From Methanocalculus natronophilus (GTDB taxonomy: Archaea > Halobacteriota > Methanomicrobia > Methanomicrobiales > Methanocorpusculaceae): 32,694 nucleotides of DNA. The position numbers and the translations under genes are program-made. The stretch covers positions 1-32,694 of the forward strand of contig NZ_JBCEXH010000012.1 of NCBI RefSeq assembly GCF_038751955.1. Reading direction: 5' to 3'. Position 1 is the first letter of the stretch. The number at the start of each line of letters is the position of its first letter. The notes beneath the pieces were generated by a model. That model ran no database searches. It saw nothing but the letters and a program-made list of their open reading frames with translations, and was not told the origin of the DNA. Below are positions 1 to 8,346 of this stretch, piece by piece.

Positions 1-305
1 GCCGCAGATGCTGGCGCGGGAGGGGCGGGAATGCTCCGGGGGCAGCCAGAGGAGATACGCCCCGATTCCTTTGGAATCGCCTTTCAGGTTGCTCTCTCGA
101 GCAAGAGCTTATCACCTCTGTTCTGCCTGGTCCCTTCGCTGACCCCGCCCCCCTATACCCGCGCCGCATGTGCTTCCAGTTGCTCCCAATGATCCCGGTT
201 GTTGTATCGTGCTCTCTACCCGGGATCTTTTCACGGGATCTTTTCCCATGCTCCGAAGAATTCAGAAAAACCCTCGTGATCGGAGTTTTTTGGAGAAGAG
301 TCATA
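1..305 (+). repeat. Dispersed structured repeat, copy 1 (left end cut by window)
   Basis: This copy is near-identical to stretches at 2797-3109 and 7090-7275. It contains strong potential RNA/DNA folds. Arm 4-29 (GCAGATGC, GGCGCGGG, GGGGCGGG) can pair with 144-173 (CCCGCCCC, CCCGCGCC, GCATGTGC), with one mismatch and small internal loops. Inside are a CGATTCC/GGAATCG hairpin (63-79) and a TTGCTC/GAGCAA hairpin with a 4-base loop (89-104). The tail from about 175 to 305 is shared only with copy 2. It lies just upstream of the nitroreductase-like gene. No protein is supported in it. Confidence 0.85.
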
Positions 306-352
306 ATAATTATCGTCTTATCTGGCACAGACTCTTTCAGGATATGGTATTC

Positions 353-949
353 ATGAGTGACTGCATCAGAACGCTGACACAACAGAGCAGGAGCACCCGC
401 CGTTTCCAGGAAGATCACTTGCTTTCCCGCGACCAGCTTACAGGACTCATCGATATTGCCAGGTTCTGCCCGTCTGCCAGGAACCGGCAGCCGCTTCGGT
501 ATATCATCTCGGTTGATCCTGACCAGACTCATGCTATCTGTTCCCTCCTTCTCTGGGCGCTTGATCTCCCTGAGTGGGACGGGCCTGTTGCTGGTGAGCG
601 GCCCCCTGCGTATATCACGATTCTTGCATCTGTCGATTGCAGCCCGGATCCTGCAATTGATCTTGGGATTGCCGCCCAGACGATCCTCCTTGCTGCTGCT
701 GAAGAGGGTATTGCGGGTTGCATCTTCGGATCAGTGCAGAAGTCCGGGCTTCGCCGCCTGCTGCAGGTTCCAGCAGAGATGGAGATTCTGCTCGTTGTAG
801 CACTCGGCTATCCGGCAGAAGAGATCCGGCTTGAGCCGCTCCCGCCCAATGGAGATACCCGGTACTGGCGATCACCTGATGGTATCCACCATGTCCCGAA
901 GCGGGCGCTAGAGGATTGTATTATTCATCAGGGAGAGCAGGCAGATTAG
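353..949 (+). CDS. Nitroreductase-family flavoprotein
   Basis: Predicted FMN-dependent NAD(P)H oxidoreductase of the nitroreductase superfamily; the substrate is unknown. From the ATG at 353 the protein has 198 residues, close to the usual 170-220. The N-terminus has the family signature: STRRF, then a segment with CPSARNRQP that matches the FMN-phosphate/ribityl contact region. The middle (DLGIAAQTILLAAAEEGIAG) is the dimer-helix segment, and the GYPAEE near the C-terminus is typical. The reading frame is open further upstream to 170, but that part translates the structured repeat, so 353 is the better start. The ribosome site (AGGA about ten bases upstream) is only fair. It is transcribed toward ftr and ends 185 bases from the ftr stop. 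Family assignment is confident, function is not. Confidence 0.8.
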   Translation: MSDCIRTLTQQSRSTRRFQEDHLLSRDQLTGLIDIARFCPSARNRQPLRYIISVDPDQTHAICSLLLWALDLPEWDGPVAGERPPAYITILASVDCSPDPAIDLGIAAQTILLAAAEEGIAGCIFGSVQKSGLRRLLQVPAEMEILLVVALGYPAEEIRLEPLPPNGDTRYWRSPDGIHHVPKRALEDCIIHQGEQAD

Positions 950-1026
950 GCAGAGGCAGGGGTCGATCAGTTATGAAGCGGTGCTCGACTGCAATCGCGT
1001 GATAGAATACAGTGGGGCGGAAATCT

Positions 1027-1040
1027 GCTAAAATTTTAGC
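1027..1040. other. Perfect 14-bp palindrome between convergent genes
   Basis: GCTAAAATTTTAGC is its own reverse complement. It lies between the convergent ends of the nitroreductase gene and ftr. It has no loop, so it is not a conventional hairpin; a protein-binding site is possible but unproven. Confidence 0.5.
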
Positions 1041-1044
1041 GTGA

Positions 1045-1061
1045 AGGTAAAAAACCCTACC
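1045..1061 (-). terminator. U-tract terminator downstream of ftr
   Basis: Read on the - strand this is GGTAGGG followed by six T residues, about 80 bases after the ftr stop codon. Archaeal transcription commonly ends at such T-runs without a strong hairpin. Confidence 0.5.
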
Positions 1062-1134
1062 AGACATCTCTCTTGTTTCGCATTCTGATATGGCCGCTGC
1101 CCTCTCTCTTTCTTGCCTCCAGCTCTCTTCTCTC

Positions 1135-2016
1135 TCAGAAGAGATCATGGAGTGCAAACCGGTGCGGTCCGAGCCTGCCATCAAAATTCGATGCCCCGAT
1201 GGCAAGGACTCCGCCCGTTGCTACGGCGGCTGTAATACCTGCTTTCATGGCCGACTGAATCGCATCCCCGCCGATCCCGTTGATGACGATCTCATAGATT
1301 GTCGTCACGCCATCCGGGACCTGTGAACCTTGCACCGTTTCCCTGAGTGCCGGGCAGAGGCGGTGGTTTGTGCTTGCTGGCATCGGGAAGCGGTAGTTGC
1401 TGCACCCGACTTTTGACCCGCTCCCGACAATTCCTCCGGCAAAACTCGTGATGACGCCTAGGAGGGGATTGATTGCCTCAACTGCTGCTTCTGCTGCGGC
1501 AAGTGCGTCTCTCTGGTTATCACTCATAACGAGGAAGTTGCCTCCTGCAATCCCCTTCACGGTTCCAAACCGTTCTTCCCCGATATAGTATCCTTCCATC
1601 ACGGGTATCTTCCAGCACTGCCTCCCGCCAACAGTGCAGCGCTCCTCGTACCCGTCCCCGAAATAATGCATCCGGGTAAAAAAGCGATCAACCGCATCCG
1701 GCAGGCCGTCATAGGCTGATGCGGTCGGTGCAGGGAGGATGCACTGGGATATCCGGTCTGCGACAAGGGATCGCATCTGCTTTTTTTCGCCACAGATCAG
1801 GATCGAGACGCCGGGCCTGCCATCTGGCGTATCGGTATATTCACCTTCGATCCCTGCCTCGCAGGGACAGTAGATTTTTGATGTCGCAAAGCCGGCTGCC
1901 TCCCCAGCAGCCACATAGGCCCATTTCAGGGAGTCGGCTGTGACGATCACCCGTGATACCCAGATTGGGAAGGCTTCAGCAAAGGTATCAAGGATGACTG
2001 TATCGTTACGCTGCAT
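1135..2016 (-). CDS. ftr: Formylmethanofuran:tetrahydromethanopterin formyltransferase
   Basis: Cytosolic enzyme of the second step of CO2-reducing methanogenesis: it moves the formyl group from formylmethanofuran to tetrahydromethanopterin. The protein matches Ftr over its length: DTFAEAFP near the N-terminus, GFATS, the CPCEAGIE block, ETPDGRPGV-like TPDGRPGV, GLPDA, the PVMEGYYIGEE block, IAGGN, a GGIVGSGSKVG block and the C-terminal HDLF. The annotated frame could begin with GTG at 2028, overlapping the upstream stop codon. However, AGAGGGTGA at 2033-2025 is a good ribosome site eight bases before the ATG at 2016, and that start gives 293 residues with the same N-terminal length as known Ftr proteins. 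It is translationally coupled to the folate cyclo-ligase gene just upstream. Methanogens can carry more than one ftr; whether this is the main copy cannot be told here. Confidence 0.95.
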   Translation of the reverse strand: MQRNDTVILDTFAEAFPIWVSRVIVTADSLKWAYVAAGEAAGFATSKIYCPCEAGIEGEYTDTPDGRPGVSILICGEKKQMRSLVADRISQCILPAPTASAYDGLPDAVDRFFTRMHYFGDGYEERCTVGGRQCWKIPVMEGYYIGEERFGTVKGIAGGNFLVMSDNQRDALAAAEAAVEAINPLLGVITSFAGGIVGSGSKVGCSNYRFPMPASTNHRLCPALRETVQGSQVPDGVTTIYEIVINGIGGDAIQSAMKAGITAAVATGGVLAIGASNFDGRLGPHRFALHDLF

Positions 2017-2024
2017 GGAGCAAT

Positions 2025-2033
2025 TCACCCTCT
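2025..2033 (-). promoter_or_regulatory. Ribosome binding site that fixes the ftr start
   Basis: AGAGGGTGA on the - strand ends eight bases before the ATG at 2016. It overlaps the stop codon of the upstream cyclo-ligase gene, which suggests coupled translation. Confidence 0.7.
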
Positions 2034-2591
2034 TTTGTAGACAACCCCGTCTTCTGTTATGATTGCATCCATGATGATGTCATGGGGATCCAGTGGCAGC
2101 GCCTCGATCTCCTGGAAGGCAAAGGCGATGCCGATCTTTCTGATCTCAGGATGCATCGAGAGGAACCTGTCATAATAGCCTGCACCATACCCGATACGCC
2201 CGCCACGGCGGTCAAACCCGAGCATCGGCAGGATGATGGTGTCGACATCCTCCCCACGGGCCGGGATCTCGCTTCCGATTGGCTCTGGAACACCGAATGT
2301 ACTTGGGATCAGAACACCCATGTCTTCCAGGTACGAGAGGCGAAGGGTGTAATCTTCTTTCTGGATGATCGGGACAATGACCGGGTTTTTGTATGCAAGG
2401 AGCATCGTGATGAGCGGAACTGTGTTCACCTCCTTCTCTTTTGAGGTATAGACCATCACCGTCTCCTTTGGCTGGATCATCTTCATCAGGTGTGAACAGA
2501 TCCGCCTGCTCTTTTCAAACCGCTCATCCGGGGTTTGAAGTTCTTTCCTCTGCCTGAGAATATTCCGTATCGTCTCCTTATCTTCAGCCAT
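2025..2591 (-). CDS. 5-formyltetrahydrofolate cyclo-ligase family protein
   Basis: ATP-dependent enzyme family that converts 5-formyl-tetrahydrofolate to the 5,10-methenyl form. In a methanogen the substrate may be a folate or a tetrahydropterin relative. The 188-residue protein has the family pattern: basic N-terminal helix, a TVMVYTSKEKEVNT strand-helix segment, the conserved LPMLGFDRRGGRIGYGAG block with YYDRFL (Mg-ATP and substrate site), KIGIAFAFQ, and a C-terminal LPLDPHDIIMDAIIT. Several upstream start codons exist (TTG 2606, GTG 2603, ATG 2600). A GGTGAT site seven bases before the ATG at 2591 makes MAEDKET the likely start. A TATA box lies at about 2627-2636. It is the first gene of a two-gene unit with ftr, linking C1-carrier repair to C1 transfer. 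Confidence 0.9.
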   Translation of the reverse strand: MAEDKETIRNILRQRKELQTPDERFEKSRRICSHLMKMIQPKETVMVYTSKEKEVNTVPLITMLLAYKNPVIVPIIQKEDYTLRLSYLEDMGVLIPSTFGVPEPIGSEIPARGEDVDTIILPMLGFDRRGGRIGYGAGYYDRFLSMHPEIRKIGIAFAFQEIEALPLDPHDIIMDAIITEDGVVYKRG

Positions 2592-2626
2592 GGGACGCAT
2601 CACCAATGGCAGTAGTATATCCGGAA

Positions 2627-2636
2627 GGTATAAAAA
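2627..2636 (-). promoter_or_regulatory. TATA box of the cyclo-ligase/ftr unit
   Basis: On the - strand the sequence is TTTTTATACC. Its centre is about 25 bases before position 2606, giving a short leader of about 15 bases that contains the GGTGAT ribosome site. Confidence 0.6.
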
Positions 2637-2740
2637 TGGTTCTTCTCCGGCTTCAGCCTTTTAAGAGTATTCGTGGTAAAAGAATCAGAGACAGGTATGG
2701 AGTTACGTTGGAGATTGGCTCTCGTACTCGCGTGTCAGAA

Positions 2741-3109
2741 TCCCCACCGCCCCGGACCCGTCCGCAAATGCTTCGCAAGGGATGTTGAGCTGGATTGCCG
2801 CAGATGCTGGCGCGGGAGGGGCGGGAATGCTCCGGGGGCAGCCAGAGGAGATACGCCCCGAAACCTTCGGAATCGCCTTTCAGGTTGCTCTGATGAGCAA
2901 GAGCTTATCACCTCTCTCTGCCTGATCCCCATCACCTGACCCGCCCCCCGATACCCGCGCCGCATGTGCTTCCAGTTGCTCCCAATGATCCCGGTCGTTG
3001 CATCAGGATCTCTACCCGGGCAATCTATCGTGCTCTCTTCCCGGGATCTTTTCCCATGCTCCGAAAATGCAGGAAAATTCTCGTGATCAGAATTGTGGAG
3101 AATGAGTCA
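2741..3109 (+). repeat. Dispersed structured repeat, copy 2 (uninterrupted)
   Basis: This is the most complete copy. A leading block at 2741-2782 (CCCCACCGCCCCGG followed by CCGTCCGCAAATGCTTCGCA) matches the sequence on both sides of the group II intron in copy 3. A core at 2797-2985 matches copies 1 and 3, and a tail to about 3109 matches copy 1 only. The long pairing arms are kept, as is the TTGCTC/GAGCAA hairpin, here with loop TGAT instead of TCTC. The upstream hairpin has changed to CCGAA/TTCGG. With the next two entries it fills most of the 900-base gap between the cyclo-ligase and permease genes. Confidence 0.85.
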
Positions 3110-3153
3110 GTTTGTGTAAGGTTTGTGTAAGGTTTGTGTAAGGTTTGTGTAAG
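3110..3153 (+). repeat. Four perfect 11-bp tandem repeats
   Basis: The unit GTTTGTGTAAG occurs four times in a row without a mismatch. It begins exactly where the homology of repeat copy 2 fades. A related motif, TTGTGTAAAC, occurs as spaced direct repeats upstream of tupA at 7332-7368. It has no spacers and is not a CRISPR. Confidence 0.9.
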
Positions 3154-3210
3154 AACAGAGCAAGGTATCTCCTGGTCATGGAGTGATCGCACATATGCCT
3201 TGATAGAGCC

Positions 3211-3333
3211 GGTCACCGAACATCCTCCGGGGGGGGCACTGCCATCCCCCCTTCGGAGTTCGGCGAAGGTGACCTGTCGGTCACCATGCGGGGCTTACCG
3301 CCCCGCCAGGAAGGATAGATGGCGCTTCGCGCC
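3211..3333. repeat. Cluster of strong inverted repeats
   Basis: Several GC-rich hairpins follow one another. GGTCACC (3211) can pair with GGTGACC (3268), enclosing CTCCG plus a G-run (3225-3236) that pairs with a C-run plus CGGAG (3246-3258). GGTGACC (3268) can instead pair with GGTCACC (3279) across four bases. GCGGGGC/GCCCCGC follows at about 3288-3306, and GGCGC/GCGCC at 3321-3333. The two GGTCACC arms compete for one partner, so alternative folds are possible. It lies 170-290 bases beyond the permease stop codon. No reading frame here looks real. Confidence 0.8.
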
Positions 3334-3451
3334 TACTTCTTGTTACCTGGTCGCTCTCCTCTTCAACCACAGTATCCCATGCACTGTCGCTTGTGTGGAA
3401 AAGGTATCTGCTGTGAGGATGAAACCAGAATATTCAGCCGATATTTGCCTG

Positions 3452-3496
3452 GAATTCAGAAAGTCTGGCGATCAGAAATTCTGAGAAGAGTCATAT
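3452..3496 (+). repeat. Extra fragment of the dispersed-repeat tail
   Basis: GAATTCAGAAA followed by a GATCAGAA-like stretch and GAGAAGAGTCAT matches, with gaps, the tail of copy 1 at about 258-306. It is a partial third occurrence of the tail, directly downstream of the permease stop codon. The match is short and imperfect. Confidence 0.5.
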
Positions 3497-3501
3497 TTGA
3501 T

Positions 3502-4641
3502 TCATCCTTTTGCAGCATCATCTTCGCTCTTCTGTTTGCCGAGGATGTATGCCAGGATCATCCCGAGTATAAAAGCCGGGGTGATGCCACTGATGAGCGT
3601 TATGATGCCGATGAAGATGGTGACCGGGTAGGAGTCGGTTTGTATCCCGTGTTTCCCAAGTTCGAGAGCGACAAAGACGAGGAGGCCGCCAAAGATACCA
3701 TAGGGGATCAGGGTCAGGACTTCCGGGGGTGCAAAGGCGACTGCAAATCCGATGATGATGAGCCCGGCGATGATGTTTGCCCCGCCGGTCCGTGCTCCAA
3801 ACCTGTACATGGCGGCGAGTCCCCCGGCACCGTGGCACATCGGGAACCCGCCGAGCGGGGCAGTGATCAGGTTCATTATGCCGGTTGTCTTTGCCAGCCG
3901 GTCAGGTTTTACCTCGTGCCTGAAGAGATCAAGGGTGAGGAGGGATGTGGCGAGGATCGCATTTCCAAGTGTCAGGGGGATCTGGGGGATCACCAGGTGA
4001 ATGGTGGCAAAGAGCCAGTCGCCTGAGAGAGGGATAATCAGTTCAGGGATCGGAATCATTCTGAGTGGCGGCATCCCGGTCATGATGATGCCTGCGGCAA
4101 GACCAATTCCGATGACGACAAGTGACGAAATATCCGGGATCTTCCTCCATGTTGCTCCAAGAAAGAAGATGACCACGATTCCAATGGCAAGAGCGGCAAA
4201 GAAGATGTCTGCTACGATATAGCCTAATGACGTCCTGAGCAGGAGCAGGGCAAGGCCCACCTGGATCCCCCTGATGACGCTCTCAGGGATGACCCGCCTG
4301 ATCCGCTCCATCCCCTTCACCATACCGAATGCGAGGAATAAGATCCCGATGATGATCCCGGAGGCTGCAATCTCGCCTGCTGTCAGTCCTTCGGCAATGG
4401 CAATGGCGCCGATTGCCTTCATCGGCTCAATCGGGATTGGGAGTTTGTAATAGAAGCCTGCGATGATGAACCAGAGGCCGACCCCGAGGAATGCATAACT
4501 GACATTCACCTGGGCGGCTATCCCTGCTCCAAGGATGATCGGAAATATTGTCCCAAAATCGCCGACAGACCCTGCAAGCTCCCTGAGGGAGAACCGGATG
4601 CCGTCTTCGCCTTCCCTCTCCCCTGGCCTACTGCTCTCCAT
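3502..4641 (-). CDS. MOT1-family molybdate (or sulfate) permease
   Basis: Predicted integral membrane transporter of the MOT1/putative sulfate transporter family, importing molybdate or a related oxyanion. The 379-residue protein carries the three family hallmarks. ELAGSVGDFGTIFPIIL lies at about residues 21-37. A P-rich PIPIEPMKAIGAIAIAEG lies at 68-85. A GFPMCHGAGGLAAMYRFGAR block lies in the C-terminal half. About ten hydrophobic segments fill the rest. It has a charged 15-residue N-terminus and a short-spaced GAGGAT ribosome site before ATG 4641. Before the group II intron arrived it was a close divergent neighbour of tupABC, which supports a Mo/W uptake role serving formylmethanofuran dehydrogenase. 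Sulfate as substrate cannot be excluded from sequence. Confidence 0.85.
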   Translation of the reverse strand: MESSRPGEREGEDGIRFSLRELAGSVGDFGTIFPIILGAGIAAQVNVSYAFLGVGLWFIIAGFYYKLPIPIEPMKAIGAIAIAEGLTAGEIAASGIIIGILFLAFGMVKGMERIRRVIPESVIRGIQVGLALLLLRTSLGYIVADIFFAALAIGIVVIFFLGATWRKIPDISSLVVIGIGLAAGIIMTGMPPLRMIPIPELIIPLSGDWLFATIHLVIPQIPLTLGNAILATSLLTLDLFRHEVKPDRLAKTTGIMNLITAPLGGFPMCHGAGGLAAMYRFGARTGGANIIAGLIIIGFAVAFAPPEVLTLIPYGIFGGLLVFVALELGKHGIQTDSYPVTIFIGIITLISGITPAFILGMILAYILGKQKSEDDAAKG

Positions 4642-4881
4642 ATCCTCTTCAAACCGGGTATTGGCTGCACTATGTCAAAAGGATTCTGCTGGGAGTTTTT
4701 GTTCTTCTCTGGCTTTCTGAAGGGTCGTGCTATCATTTTTGTGACTAATTTGCACGTGATCTCTCCTTGCTCTATGTGCACTTCTACGTTATTCATTGTA
4801 CCATTCGTTGCACAATCACCGGAATTGCATACCTGCATGCAAGAGCAATGCACGTACACAGTGATGATTATCAGGAGTGCC

Positions 4882-4892
4882 CCCCACCGCCC
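4882..4892 (+). repeat. Left exon fragment of repeat copy 3
   Basis: CCCCACCGCCC, ending at the intron junction, matches 2742-2752 of the uninterrupted copy. Joining it to 7011 onward restores the copy 2 sequence with single-base differences. Confidence 0.8.
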
Positions 4893-4930
4893 GTCGAATA
4901 ACAAGGCGGGATTACTCCCGCCCCGTCTTC
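4893..4930 (-). ncRNA. Group II intron domain VI and 3' splice site
   Basis: On the - strand a stem of CGGGGCGGGA with TCCCGCCTTG around a GTAA loop is followed by TTATTCGAC. The A in TTATTC is seven bases from the intron end, the usual branch-point distance. The intron ends in AC. Confidence 0.75.
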
Positions 4931-4933
4931 CAA

Positions 4934-4967
4934 GAACCGGACTTGCGACTTTCACCGCATCCGGCTC
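4934..4967 (-). ncRNA. Group II intron domain V
   Basis: The - strand begins GAGCCGGATGCGG, contains GAAAGTCGC in the loop region and ends GTCCGGTTC. It forms a 34-nt hairpin that matches the catalytic domain V consensus. The maturase stop codon TGA overlaps its first two bases. Confidence 0.9.
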
Positions 4968-6459
4968 ACGCATTCCTCAACCCATTGCTGGGCGGTAACG
5001 CAAAATAGGATAATTTGGTTTGAATCCATGGTGTCTGTCTTGTCATGCGCTCTTTTCTCTCCAGAAAGTAATTCCTTTCGAGATATGGATTCGCATCGAG
5101 TTTAGGGTGACTGTGTCTCCGGATTGATGCATCAGAGAATTGGAGGAGGGTGTTTTCCTGTGTCTGGAAAACCCAGTTCCTGTTCCCTTCAGATTTCCAG
5201 TATCTGTCTACAATCCATTTGAATCCCTTGTCAGAGTGTCGTCGTTTTCCCCATTGCCATGTTACGATCCAGAGGTATTTGTCCAGTTTCTTAAATGTCT
5301 GTTTGGCGACAATATGACGATGGTAGTTTGCCCATCCTCGTATAATTGGGTTTAATGTCTTTATCAGGTCGTCCTGTGACCAGGCTTGCGCCTTTTTTGT
5401 CACAGTTTTGATTTTGTCAGTGATCGATTTAATTGACATCTTTGATGGTTTGGTCAGGAATTTACCTTTGTATTTCCGGAAATTGTATCCGAGAAAATCA
5501 AAACCATCGCCAATGTGTGTGATCAACGTCTTCTCTTCCGATAGTGTTAACCCTCTCTTCGCGAGAAATCTCTGTATGACGTTCCTGGCTGCCTCTGCGA
5601 TCTCTTTCGTAGGAGCAGTTACCAGGAAATCATCTGCATATCGGATAAAATGAACTTTCATCCGTGGGAACTCTGCTTTAAGGACGTTTTCTAACCCGTC
5701 CAGCGTCATATTCGCGAGAATTGGGGAAAAAAGCCCACCCTGCGGAGTACCTTTGTCTGTCGGATAGAGTGTCTGATCGAAGACATATCCCGATTTGAGA
5801 AACTGGGTGAGGACCGATTGATCCATGGGTATATGTTCCTTGAGCCAATCGTGGAGGATGTTATCAAAACATCCGCGAATATCGCCTTCAAGGATGTATG
5901 GGGAGGACGTCTTTTTTCCAAGGCATTTGAATGCGTATTCTGACGCATCCTGTGCTGATCGGAAGAGTCTGAATCCAAATGATCGTGGATCTGCTGTCGT
6001 CTCTGCAATCGGCTGGAGAGCCAGACCATAGAGTGCCTGCATTGCGCGATCATACATTGTTGGAATCGAGATCGGACGTTTAGTATCCTTCCCTGGTTTA
6101 GGGATGTAGATGCGTCGTAATGGTTGCGCGCGATACTGTTTGTCAGTGAGCCTCAGGGCTGCCTTCATCTTCTCAGATGGGGAGTTCCAGAGTTCTCCAT
6201 CAATGCCTGGGGTACGCTTTCCCTTGTTCTGAGTCACGATTCGTACTGCCAGCATTTTTGCTGAGAGCGAGTGTGTCAACAGATAACTCAGACGTTTAAC
6301 CAGATTCCATTTTCCTTCTTGTGTTGCCTTTGCAATCCGGATCTGTAGCCGATTAACGGTGGATTTGACTTTGTCCCAGTCAATGGAGTTCCATTGCCGG
6401 GCGAGATCCTTGTCAGTATGTTTCTCGTCTTGTGACGTCGTTGAATGACATACTTTCAT
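4966..6459 (-). CDS. Group II intron reverse transcriptase/maturase
   Basis: Intron-encoded protein that binds the intron RNA, assists splicing and copies it into DNA during retrohoming. From the ATG at 6459 it has 497 residues. GAAGGAAGG seven bases upstream selects this start over a longer open frame to 6525. The N-terminal RT-0 region (WNSIDWDKV) is followed by finger/palm motifs: LRRIYIPKPGK, EGDIRGCFDNI (first catalytic Asp near 193), GTPQGGLFSPILAN (near 237-250) and YADD (274-277). The thumb/maturase domain X spans about 320-385 (FLGYNFRKY, IIRGWANYHRH). The C-terminal DNA-binding region keeps SIRRHSHPKLDANPY, but no HNH endonuclease with its Cys/His pairs follows. The enzyme therefore looks complete for RT and maturase but endonuclease-minus. 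Confidence 0.95.
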   Translation of the reverse strand: MKVCHSTTSQDEKHTDKDLARQWNSIDWDKVKSTVNRLQIRIAKATQEGKWNLVKRLSYLLTHSLSAKMLAVRIVTQNKGKRTPGIDGELWNSPSEKMKAALRLTDKQYRAQPLRRIYIPKPGKDTKRPISIPTMYDRAMQALYGLALQPIAETTADPRSFGFRLFRSAQDASEYAFKCLGKKTSSPYILEGDIRGCFDNILHDWLKEHIPMDQSVLTQFLKSGYVFDQTLYPTDKGTPQGGLFSPILANMTLDGLENVLKAEFPRMKVHFIRYADDFLVTAPTKEIAEAARNVIQRFLAKRGLTLSEEKTLITHIGDGFDFLGYNFRKYKGKFLTKPSKMSIKSITDKIKTVTKKAQAWSQDDLIKTLNPIIRGWANYHRHIVAKQTFKKLDKYLWIVTWQWGKRRHSDKGFKWIVDRYWKSEGNRNWVFQTQENTLLQFSDASIRRHSHPKLDANPYLERNYFLERKERMTRQTPWIQTKLSYFALPPSNGLRNA

Positions 6460-7010
6460 CGTTATACCTTCCTTCATTGCTTCGGAATACCCATCCCACG
6501 TCAGCACCCTTTCAGGTCGAGGCAATCGCCTCTATCCCGCTCATTACAAGCGGGCATTCGCTTCTTGGGACATCCTGTTCCGTCTACACCGTCTGTTGGT
6601 CTTGCGACCTCCATACCTCGATTGAGGAGTGTATACGGGTTTCCAAGTTCCGTATCGGAGATAATTATGAACGCTGTAGGAGTCATCTGTGAGCCGGGAA
6701 TCGTTTGTCTGCCTGTCATCCTATGGGACGTGTAGTGATGATCTGACTCCTTACCATTTTGGTTCGGGCGTGGTTACACCCTGGTTTCGCCTGTTGCGGA
6801 TTACGACCCTTTAACGATGATTCAACATGTGTTTCTCCATGGCGTTCTTTTCCTGGCAGATTGAACAGATCAGGGTTCTGTTCTTCTCCGCGTTGTTCCC
6901 TGGGCTTCACACCCTCCCGTTACCAGGAGCGCATGCCAAGGTAGGAACATCCCAGACAGATAGGATGGCGGATTTACCCGCAATCTCCGAGTACAGCTTT
7001 CTTGTCGCAC

Positions 7011-7275
7011 CGGCCCCGTCCGCACATGCTTCGCAGGGGAGGTTCGTGCCGGGTGATGGGTCTACCGGGTGTACTGGGTGTACTGTGTGGCCGCAGATGC
7101 TGGCGCGGGAGGGGCGGGAATGCTTCGGGGGCTGCCAGAAGCAGATAAATCCCCGATTCCTTTGGAATCGCCTTTCAGGTTGCTCTCTCGAGCAAGGGTT
7201 TATCAGGTCTGTTCCGCCTGTTCCCCTTCGCTAACCCCGCCCCCCTATACCCGCGCCGCATGTGCTTGCAGTTGC
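7011..7275 (+). repeat. Dispersed structured repeat, copy 3 (right part, after intron)
   Basis: The block after the intron (CCGTCCGCACATGCTTCGCA) matches 2758-2777 with one change. A spacer with two GGGTGTACT units follows, and then the core at 7090-7275, matching copies 1 and 2. The long arms and the TTGCTC/GAGCAA hairpin are intact, and CGATTCC/GGAATCG is kept as in copy 1. The copy-1/2 tail is missing. It lies about 150 bases upstream of tupA. Confidence 0.85.
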
Positions 7276-7331
7276 TTCTAATGCTTTCGTTGCCTCTCAT
7301 GCCTTTAACGAAAGCAGGCTTCGGCTGGTAT

Positions 7332-7368
7332 TTGTGTAAACAAATTGTGTAAACTAATTTTGTTTAAC
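7332..7368 (+). promoter_or_regulatory. Candidate operator: spaced direct repeats upstream of tupA
   Basis: TTGTGTAAAC occurs at 7332 and 7345, and a variant TTTGTTTAAC at 7359. The spacing of 13-14 bases is a little over one helical turn. They lie 20-55 bases upstream of the tupA TATA box, a common place for archaeal repressor or activator sites. A tungstate- or molybdate-responsive regulator is plausible but not shown. Confidence 0.55.
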
Positions 7369-7387
7369 AAAAGGCGAAAAGATAAAT

Positions 7388-7397
7388 CATATATATC
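7388..7397 (+). promoter_or_regulatory. TATA box of tupABC
   Basis: CATATATATC preceded by an A-rich BRE-like stretch. Transcription would start roughly at 7415-7420, leaving only a few bases before the ATG at 7426, so tupA may be nearly leaderless. This fits the absence of a good ribosome site. Confidence 0.65.
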
Positions 7398-7425
7398 TTC
7401 ACCCCGTACCTCCTTGTGGTCATTC

Positions 7426-8346
7426 ATGAAATGGGATTCCCAAATAGTCATAATCGCACTCCTTCTTGCAGGGCTGCTTGTTTCCGGATGTGTCAGTGAT
7501 GATACGGCATCAGCCTCCCGCGGGGAACTCCGTATCGCGACAACCACAAGCCTCTATGATACGGGTTTGCTTGATCACCTGAGGCCCGCGTTCGAGGATA
7601 AGTATAATGCGAAACTCCTTGTTGTCTCAGCCGGAACGGGGAAAGCCCTAGAGTACGGCCAGCGTGGCGATGTCGACGTGATGATGGTCCATGACCGTGC
7701 CCGTGAAGATACATTCATTGCAGACGGCGATGGGGTTGAGCGGCGTGTCATCGCATACAATTACTTTGTGATCATCGGTCCAGAATCAGATCCGGCAGGC
7801 ATCCGTGGCACAGAGCCGGAGGAAGCGTTTAAGACTCTTATGACTGAGGGCAAAGCCGGGACTCCGGGGGTTGCCTTTGTCTCACGCGGTGATGCATCAG
7901 GAACCCATGCAAAAGAGCAGGCGATCTGGAAGTCCGCAGGCTATACCTACGCAACCGATGTCCAGAATTCAGGCAACTGGTATGTCGAAGCCGGATCCGG
8001 GATGGGTGCAACCCTGGTGATGGCGAATGAGAAAGAGGCATACACACTCTCTGATATCGGAACGTTCCTTGCATACAAGGGGGACTTAAAGCTTGTGCCG
8101 ATCGTCGACTCCGGGGATATCCTCCTGAATGTCTACTCAACGATGTTGATCAATCCTGAGAAGCATGCCGGCATCGACACCGAGCTTGGGAAAGCCTGGA
8201 TCAACTACTTAATCTCCGACAAAGTGCAGCAGGAGATTGCAACCTTCGGTGTTGCAGAGTATGGTGAACCCCTCTTCTTTGCCGCATCCGGCAAATGGGA
8301 TGTTATGGGTGTTCCGGAAGCAGAGGTAACCACCCCTGTTCTCTGA
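7426..8346 (+). CDS. tupA: Tungstate ABC transporter substrate-binding lipoprotein
   Basis: Extracytoplasmic protein that captures tungstate for the TupBC importer. The 306-residue product starts MKWDSQ, followed by a hydrophobic stretch and the lipobox LLVSGC, so Cys near residue 24 is the likely anchor. The mature protein has the TupA ligand motif TTTSLYDTGLL, then AGTGKALEYGQRGDVDVMMVHDRA, the YNYFVIIGPESDPAGI segment and SRGDASGTHAKEQ. These are typical of TupA rather than of ModA or WtpA. An open frame extends upstream to 7345, but that would put the operator and TATA box inside the gene. It is the first gene of tupABC, 58 bases ahead of tupB. Confidence 0.92.
   Translation: MKWDSQIVIIALLLAGLLVSGCVSDDTASASRGELRIATTTSLYDTGLLDHLRPAFEDKYNAKLLVVSAGTGKALEYGQRGDVDVMMVHDRAREDTFIADGDGVERRVIAYNYFVIIGPESDPAGIRGTEPEEAFKTLMTEGKAGTPGVAFVSRGDASGTHAKEQAIWKSAGYTYATDVQNSGNWYVEAGSGMGATLVMANEKEAYTLSDIGTFLAYKGDLKLVPIVDSGDILLNVYSTMLINPEKHAGIDTELGKAWINYLISDKVQQEIATFGVAEYGEPLFFAASGKWDVMGVPEAEVTTPVL

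Follow-up and report, generated by a model that had tools for sequence, protein, structure and literature searches.

Among the described systems closest to the repeats considered here are the repetitive extragenic palindromes (REPs), which are not known to have terminal repeats or target duplications, and the miniature inverted-repeat transposable elements (MITEs), whose interiors are usually regarded as decaying filler. To our knowledge, such elements have been little described in archaea. Here, we analyse a repeat family present in three copies in one stretch of DNA from Methanocalculus natronophilus (hereafter the window), which is one entire contig (C12) of 32,694 bases from a 2.0-Mb genome assembled in 143 contigs. 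With a probability of roughly 0.88, these repeats are MITEs of the ISL3 kind that bear a nested module whose structure is conserved. The carrier is an added member of the already known archaeal ISL3 MITEs, and the new part is the interior common to them, a four-way junction with covarying pairs. No prior description of this family was found in the literature searched, which did not cover most subscription journals.

REPs and the BIMEs (bacterial interspersed mosaic elements) resemble the present repeats in being conserved extragenic palindromes in many copies. However, REPs measure 20–40 bp according to PMC3733652, whereas the unit described here is ~170 nt long and nested in a MITE. The QMITEs of Coxiella, which give rise to small RNAs (reviewed in PMC10969869), as well as SPRITE/BOX and ERIC elements, are likewise short, multicopy and intergenic and form stable stem-loops. 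In the QMITE example of that review the entire element folds through its terminal repeats; in contrast, here a separate internal module folds, contains covarying pairs and moves between element types. Neither ISL3 nor methanogens came up when the same review was searched for these terms. With ISL3 insertion sequences and MITEs our elements share terminal repeats, 8-bp AT-rich target duplications and a transposase remnant, and the 8-bp T-rich duplication TTTTTTTG left by a published ISL3-type element (PMC8615141) is close to CTTTTTTT and ATTTTTTT of the present family. Unlike ISL3 insertion sequences, they lack a transposase gene and contain a large GC-rich structured interior that is unrelated to the ISL3 coding region and common to two subfamilies.

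Two kinds of ISL3-type carrier and their common core

The original prediction, made from the window alone, described near-identical blocks at 1-173, 2797-2969 and 7090-7265, and all three are present. The repeat is longer than was stated there: the common core begins about 50 nt further upstream (window ~2742) and is enclosed in transposon-like elements having their own ends. Searching the host genome with region 2741-3109 gave 49 matching pieces, about 26 of them near-complete cores, and the same search in related genomes located the core in five of seven congeners. A local segmental duplication limited to the window, the outcome that was to speak against a structured or mobile repeat, is therefore excluded. 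Outside Methanocalculus, no core was found in 142 genomes representing the sister genus and the other sampled genera of Methanomicrobiales, nor did a covariance model run across 150 genomes of the order with strict filters produce any match beyond Methanocalculus. An exact-pattern scan of 84,980 genomes with the 21 most conserved core bases gave Methanocalculus matches in M. taiwanensis, which has several copies, M. chunghsingensis and metagenome-assembled genomes (one labelled only Methanocorpusculaceae); the single other match, in a spirochaete, was a chance one without the surrounding core, and scanning viral contigs for the core pattern returned none. In these searches the repeat family was found in Methanocalculus alone, and together with the genus tallies this range assigns the host genome to the same genus.

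Alignment of the oriented copies together with their flanks showed that the common core (~225 bp), formed by a conserved linker of ~55 nt and a palindromic unit of ~170 nt, lies inside two kinds of element. Type B elements run from GGCTCTTCGCTGATTTGTATGGGTTTTA at the 5′ end to AAACTACCCACATAAAATAGCGAGGAGGC at the 3′ end and span ~360 bp, and type A elements run from GGTTCTTCTCCATATTTCTGA to TCAGAATTTTGGAGAAGAGTC and span ~575 bp. In both types the end sequences are terminal inverted repeats, and both are small elements that contain short open reading frames (ORFs) only and no transposase gene of their own. Two hybrids (L021 and L016) have a type A left end and a type B right end. Using anchored ends, target duplication could be assessed in 30 copies with both ends located. 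The flanking 8-mers are identical at a mean of 4.83 of 8 positions, versus 2.78 ± 0.28 after shuffling (maximum 3.87 in 10,000), five of the 30 copies have perfect 8-bp duplications (AAAAAAGA, TTTATTCT, AAAAGTAT, AAAATATG and CAATAGAT), and the element 3′ flanks are 80–85% AT. Flanking duplications, which had been named beforehand as a mark of a MITE, thus exist, 8 bp long and AT-rich.

An empty site adds to this evidence. Because the genes flanking copy 2 are adjacent to each other in four congeners, this copy lies within an insertion of 855 bp (2638-3492, plus strand) whose left end is GGTTCTTCTCC (2638-2648) and whose right end is CAGAAATTCTGAGAAGAGTC (to 3492). The insertion, a shortened type A element followed by an ISL3 tail, is absent at the corresponding place in G001, G003, G004 and G006. 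In G001, window positions 2635 and 3493 abut, and congener GGTATATAAGATTCATCC corresponds to window GGTATAAAAAT[855 bp]ATATTTGATTCATCC; the flanks ATAAAAAT and ATATTTGA can be read as a decayed duplication of congener ATATAAGA. Duplications, empty sites and ISL3 ends together bear out the earlier suggestion of a non-autonomous mobile element. They do not bear out its proposal that the long palindrome arms are the termini, since these arms are internal and belong to a nested palindrome of ~170 nt that ends in a four-way junction.

Which transposase family could have moved these elements? This genome contains one PF01610 remnant, the C-terminal part of a transposase (C7:3832-3969); behind it come a structured tail and then a type A right end, and window 3109-3492 is the same tail. 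Intact ISL3 (PF01610) elements of other Methanomicrobiales end in GGCTCCTCGCTGTTTTATGTGGGTAA and GGTTCTTCGCTATTTCATGTGGGTAA, resembling GCCTCCTCGCTATTTTATGTGGGTAG of type B, and the ISL3 element L153 has a clear 8-bp duplication, AAGAAATA. In another ISL3 group (L155/L158) the ends, G[GA]CTCTTCTCCATATTTCTGAA, resemble type A. As their ends are shared with two ISL3 groups, types A and B are MITEs of two ISL3 subfamilies. IS1595, considered as a partner in view of the 8-bp duplications and GGCTCTTC ends, was rejected, as a search with PF12762 gave one fragment in one congener that is not beside such ends. According to the mechanism we propose, an ISL3 transposase would act in trans on the GGYTCTTC ends, and the element would enter an AT-rich 8-bp target and duplicate it. 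While the ends, duplications and empty sites are observed, mobilisation in trans would be due to an ISL3 transposase now missing or unassembled.

Architecture, pairing and exchange of the hairpin unit

The hairpin unit extends over ~170 nt, from GCAGATGC to GCAnnTGC, and is bordered by the direct repeat GCCGCAnnTGC. Its arms, GGCGCGGG/CCCGCGCC and GGGGCGGG/CCCGCCCC, surround the P2 stem (CAGAG..GATAAACCC / GGGTTTATC..CTCTG) and three hairpins (CGATTC/GAATCG, CCTTTCAGG and TTGCTC/GAGCAA) directly adjoining one another with zero unpaired bases, giving a four-way junction. As had been noticed from the window, the long complementary arms and the TTGCTC/GAGCAA hairpin occur in all three copies (with loops TCTC, TGAT and TCTC), and in copy 2 CGATTCC/GGAATCG gives way to an alternative CCGAA/TTCGG hairpin. 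This switch was correctly read; nevertheless, the AA change of the copy 2 type is rare (3 of 63 copies), so that copy 2 breaks the usual stem without compensation.

Compared with dinucleotide shuffles, the unit folds with z = -4.4 as plus-strand RNA, -5.4 as minus-strand RNA and -6.1 as minus-strand DNA. Pairing was studied in 63 distinct copies, with a hand-set structure, a covariance model and the alignment made by it; this replaced a MAFFT alignment on which RNAalifold gave a weak structure (-5.8 kcal/mol) due to misaligned stem columns. Across the 63 copies 92.5% of the cells are paired. Compensatory cells number 70 versus 32.8 ± 3.6 after shuffling, with no shuffle reaching 70, and the covariation score is 0.065 versus 0.042 ± 0.002, while structures slid along the alignment give at most 14 compensatory cells and 47% pairing. 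An alignment-free test, in which 5′ halves were folded with their own or with foreign 3′ halves, favoured the own halves on both strands, by shifts of -1.8 and -2.8 kcal/mol (permutation sd 0.42 and 0.47). In a tree built on the unpaired columns, whose small number makes both tree and counts rough, the minimum number of Watson-Crick switches is 6 for pair 60-129, 7 for pair 67-123 and 4 for pair 69-122, and in the short central hairpin both variable pairs change together, from CCT/AGG to TCC/GGA. By shuffles, half-swap and switches, covariation is above chance, with relatedness of the copies, the fitted alignment and arm-copying repair as caveats. The same interior occurs in both ISL3 MITE subfamilies, and compensatory change has conserved its pairing in six genomes.

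The unit is also lost and exchanged. Exactly the hairpin unit is missing in five alleles from three genomes, and since these retain either the 5′ GA or a 3′-type dinucleotide (CC, TG), they are more simply read as precise losses than as sites from before an insertion. These natural alleles allow elements of one kind to be compared with and without the fold, and so bear on whether selection can act on a MITE interior as a structured RNA or DNA. On the hairpin tree parsimony requires at least 7 changes of element type, versus 12.4 expected with shuffled labels, and at least 2 of them are forced by well-supported branches; the hairpin therefore partly tracks element type and has also crossed between types.

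Possible roles of the fold and rival explanations

What could the folded unit do? A bolder reading, less likely than not, is that the four-way-junction unit functions as a structured nucleic acid, with a minus-strand RNA as the probable form; it would be selfish or host-useful cargo across MITE families of this archaeal genus, its fold under selection, and would enter and leave its carriers at GCCGCAnnTGC. The ~170-nt unit has passed between MITE types, can be exactly lost between GCCGCAnnTGC repeats and has retained its pairing via compensatory changes. Within a transcript that crosses it, more likely from the minus strand, the folded unit might serve as a transcript-end or stability element; its fold would make insertions at gene 3′ ends tolerable, and elements that keep the fold would persist and spread. 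This role in making such insertions tolerable is our leading guess, and a doubtful one. Judged from rough ORF calls, convergent ORFs enclose 21 of the 44 copies that have a neighbour on either side, and 12 of the 15 that also end on the right in a type B repeat. The link to one-carbon (C1) or molybdenum/tungsten (Mo/W) genes suggested earlier did not hold: other copies adjoin genes for OTCase, a helicase, an RNA methyltransferase, a photolyase and others, so the C1 and Mo/W context in the window is coincidental.

Several observations weigh against the reading of the repeats as ISL3 MITEs with a selected fold. No intact ISL3 transposase was found in the eight Methanocalculus genomes searched, where the C-terminal remnant was the sole trace; these genomes are drafts, so that either loss or failed assembly is possible. 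Pairs with both sides changed (11 of 54, versus 7.8 ± 1.5 in shuffles) exceed chance modestly, since 18 of 500 shuffles match this count, and the alignment was itself made to fit the structure. A.C mismatches at paired positions, which are G.U on minus-strand RNA, fill 127 cells versus 35 for G.T, an excess that weakly favours the minus strand and comes mostly from two pairs (46 and 25 cells), the counts without both being 56 versus 34. Convergent gaps tolerate any harmless insertion, hence the bias towards them shows no function, and in copy 2 a scan designed for bacterial promoters found no promoter-like site.

The main rival for the covariation signal is quasipalindrome correction, a possible though not favoured explanation in which one arm templates the other during replication, so that paired changes arise from repair and the palindrome hitchhikes in the MITE. 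The arms do recombine, as seen in the hybrid elements and in one element with an inverted arm region, and hairpin halves are common to distant copies (L014, L015 and L026). Moreover, the hairpin is lost exactly between short direct repeats and the dinucleotide of either repeat can remain, as replication slippage predicts. Yet the central A.A mismatch of P2, which arm copying would be expected to erase, is kept in 52 of 57 copies and speaks against simple repair of this kind; in addition, mismatch types are strand-asymmetric, and loops vary freely whereas stems do not. The claim of selection on structure raised in the original prediction is accordingly supported by the covariation, although palindrome-correcting repair could yield part of the signal.

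Somewhat less probable is a reading of the core as a discrete gene for a structured non-coding RNA, one that travels as MITE cargo and is transcribed from its own promoter. Besides the covariation and the strict four-way junction without unpaired bases, the higher conservation of the hairpin (83%, versus 62% for the type A 5′ flank) agrees with such a gene; in type B the hairpin is about as conserved as the flanks. Likewise, an AT-rich TATA-like stretch (AATATATTTTGACATTCAT) lies upstream in type A but is absent from type B, and the strand with better pairing is the opposite one. Rfam gave no match to the core: on the window it recognised only two group II intron models, and a permissive search of one full-copy locus returned nothing relevant, HEARO included.

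A single-stranded DNA structure bound by a protein (a host recombinase or the ISL3 transposase), which might for instance help excision or the choice of target, seems unlikely. The strong folding of the minus strand as DNA and the precise hairpin-loss alleles would suit it, but ISL3 transposases act on double-stranded ends, and a type A element without the core (L078) retains both ends, so the core does not look necessary. Finally, a coding repeat or local segmental duplication can be dismissed, since, although short ORFs overlap some copies, frame-breaking indels separate the copies, which are dispersed by the dozen and have target duplications.

The three copies in the contig and the group II intron

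The three copies are all written on the plus strand. Copy 1 (1-302) combines the hairpin unit (1-173) with the right-hand portion of an ISL3-type MITE of type A, whose right terminal repeat ..TTTTTTGGAGAAGAGTC ends at base 302; the left part is missing because the contig begins at that point. In copy 2, the conserved linker CCCCACCGCCCC..CCCGTCCGCAAATGCTTCGCAAGGG.. (2742-2796) precedes the hairpin unit (2797-2969), whose four-way junction is enclosed by the arms GCAGATGC-TGGCGCGGGAGGGGCGGG / CCCGCCCCCCGATACCCGCGCC-GCATGTGC and which is bordered by the direct repeat GCCGCAnnTGC. An internal type A right end, GATCAGAATTGTGGAGAATGAGTC, follows at 3085-3108, and then the structured 'type C' tail (3109-3492), identical to the stretch after the stop codon of the ISL3 transposase remnant at G000:C7. 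Where copy 2 meets this tail, GTTTGTGTAAG is repeated in tandem (3110-3153), an array that has apparently expanded out of the terminal sequence of the ISL3 transposase gene, which reads AAAAAGTTTGTTTAAG in L083. The tail represents a second GC-rich, hairpin-rich module (GGTCACCGAACATCC..GGGGGG..), also seen in L073, L083 and the flanks of L041, L044, L057 and L059; besides following the stop codon of the ISL3 transposase, it occurs in further elements, at times adjoining the core.

A group II intron of 2.1 kb (4893-7010, minus strand), antisense to the core as written, interrupts copy 3. The first 13 nt of the core (CCCCCCACCGCCC, 4880-4892; junction read directly) are separated by the intron from the remainder, CGGCCCCGTCCGCACATGC.. 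(7011-7283), which comprises a linker with an extra insert of ~30 nt (7011-7089) and the hairpin unit (7090-7265), and in which no MITE right end was recognised. With 4893-7010 left out, CCCCCCACCGCCC and CGGCCCCGTCCGCACATGC together restore the consensus core start. The intron begins with GTGCGACAAG (7010) and ends with ..TTATTCGAC (4893), both ends are matched by Rfam (4893-4969 and 6818-6967, minus strand), and it encodes a reverse transcriptase/maturase of 519 aa (4966-6525, minus strand) with RVT_N, RVT_1 and GIIM domains. A recurrent occupation of the core by this intron was rejected, given that it is single-copy in this genome and that its best relative in G001 (88%, G001:C39) is located at another site. 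In L034 and L060, a sequence (..TTGTCGCA) resembling group II intron 5′ ends directly precedes the type B left terminal repeat, meeting it at nearly the same point in two species, which hints that group II introns may target type B ends.

The repeats account for local assembly breaks and for the intron-split copy in this genome. They also coincide with a local rearrangement, as the gap corresponding to window 4607-7525 in congeners (L186, L187 and L188) has two extra genes, for an amino-acid-kinase-like protein and an 'IDDTDT' protein, that are missing here. Elsewhere in the genome, at L013 (G000:C3:266467-267164), a full copy is preceded by two tandem partial cores, linked via similar 'AATCGGGTTTTATAG' stretches.

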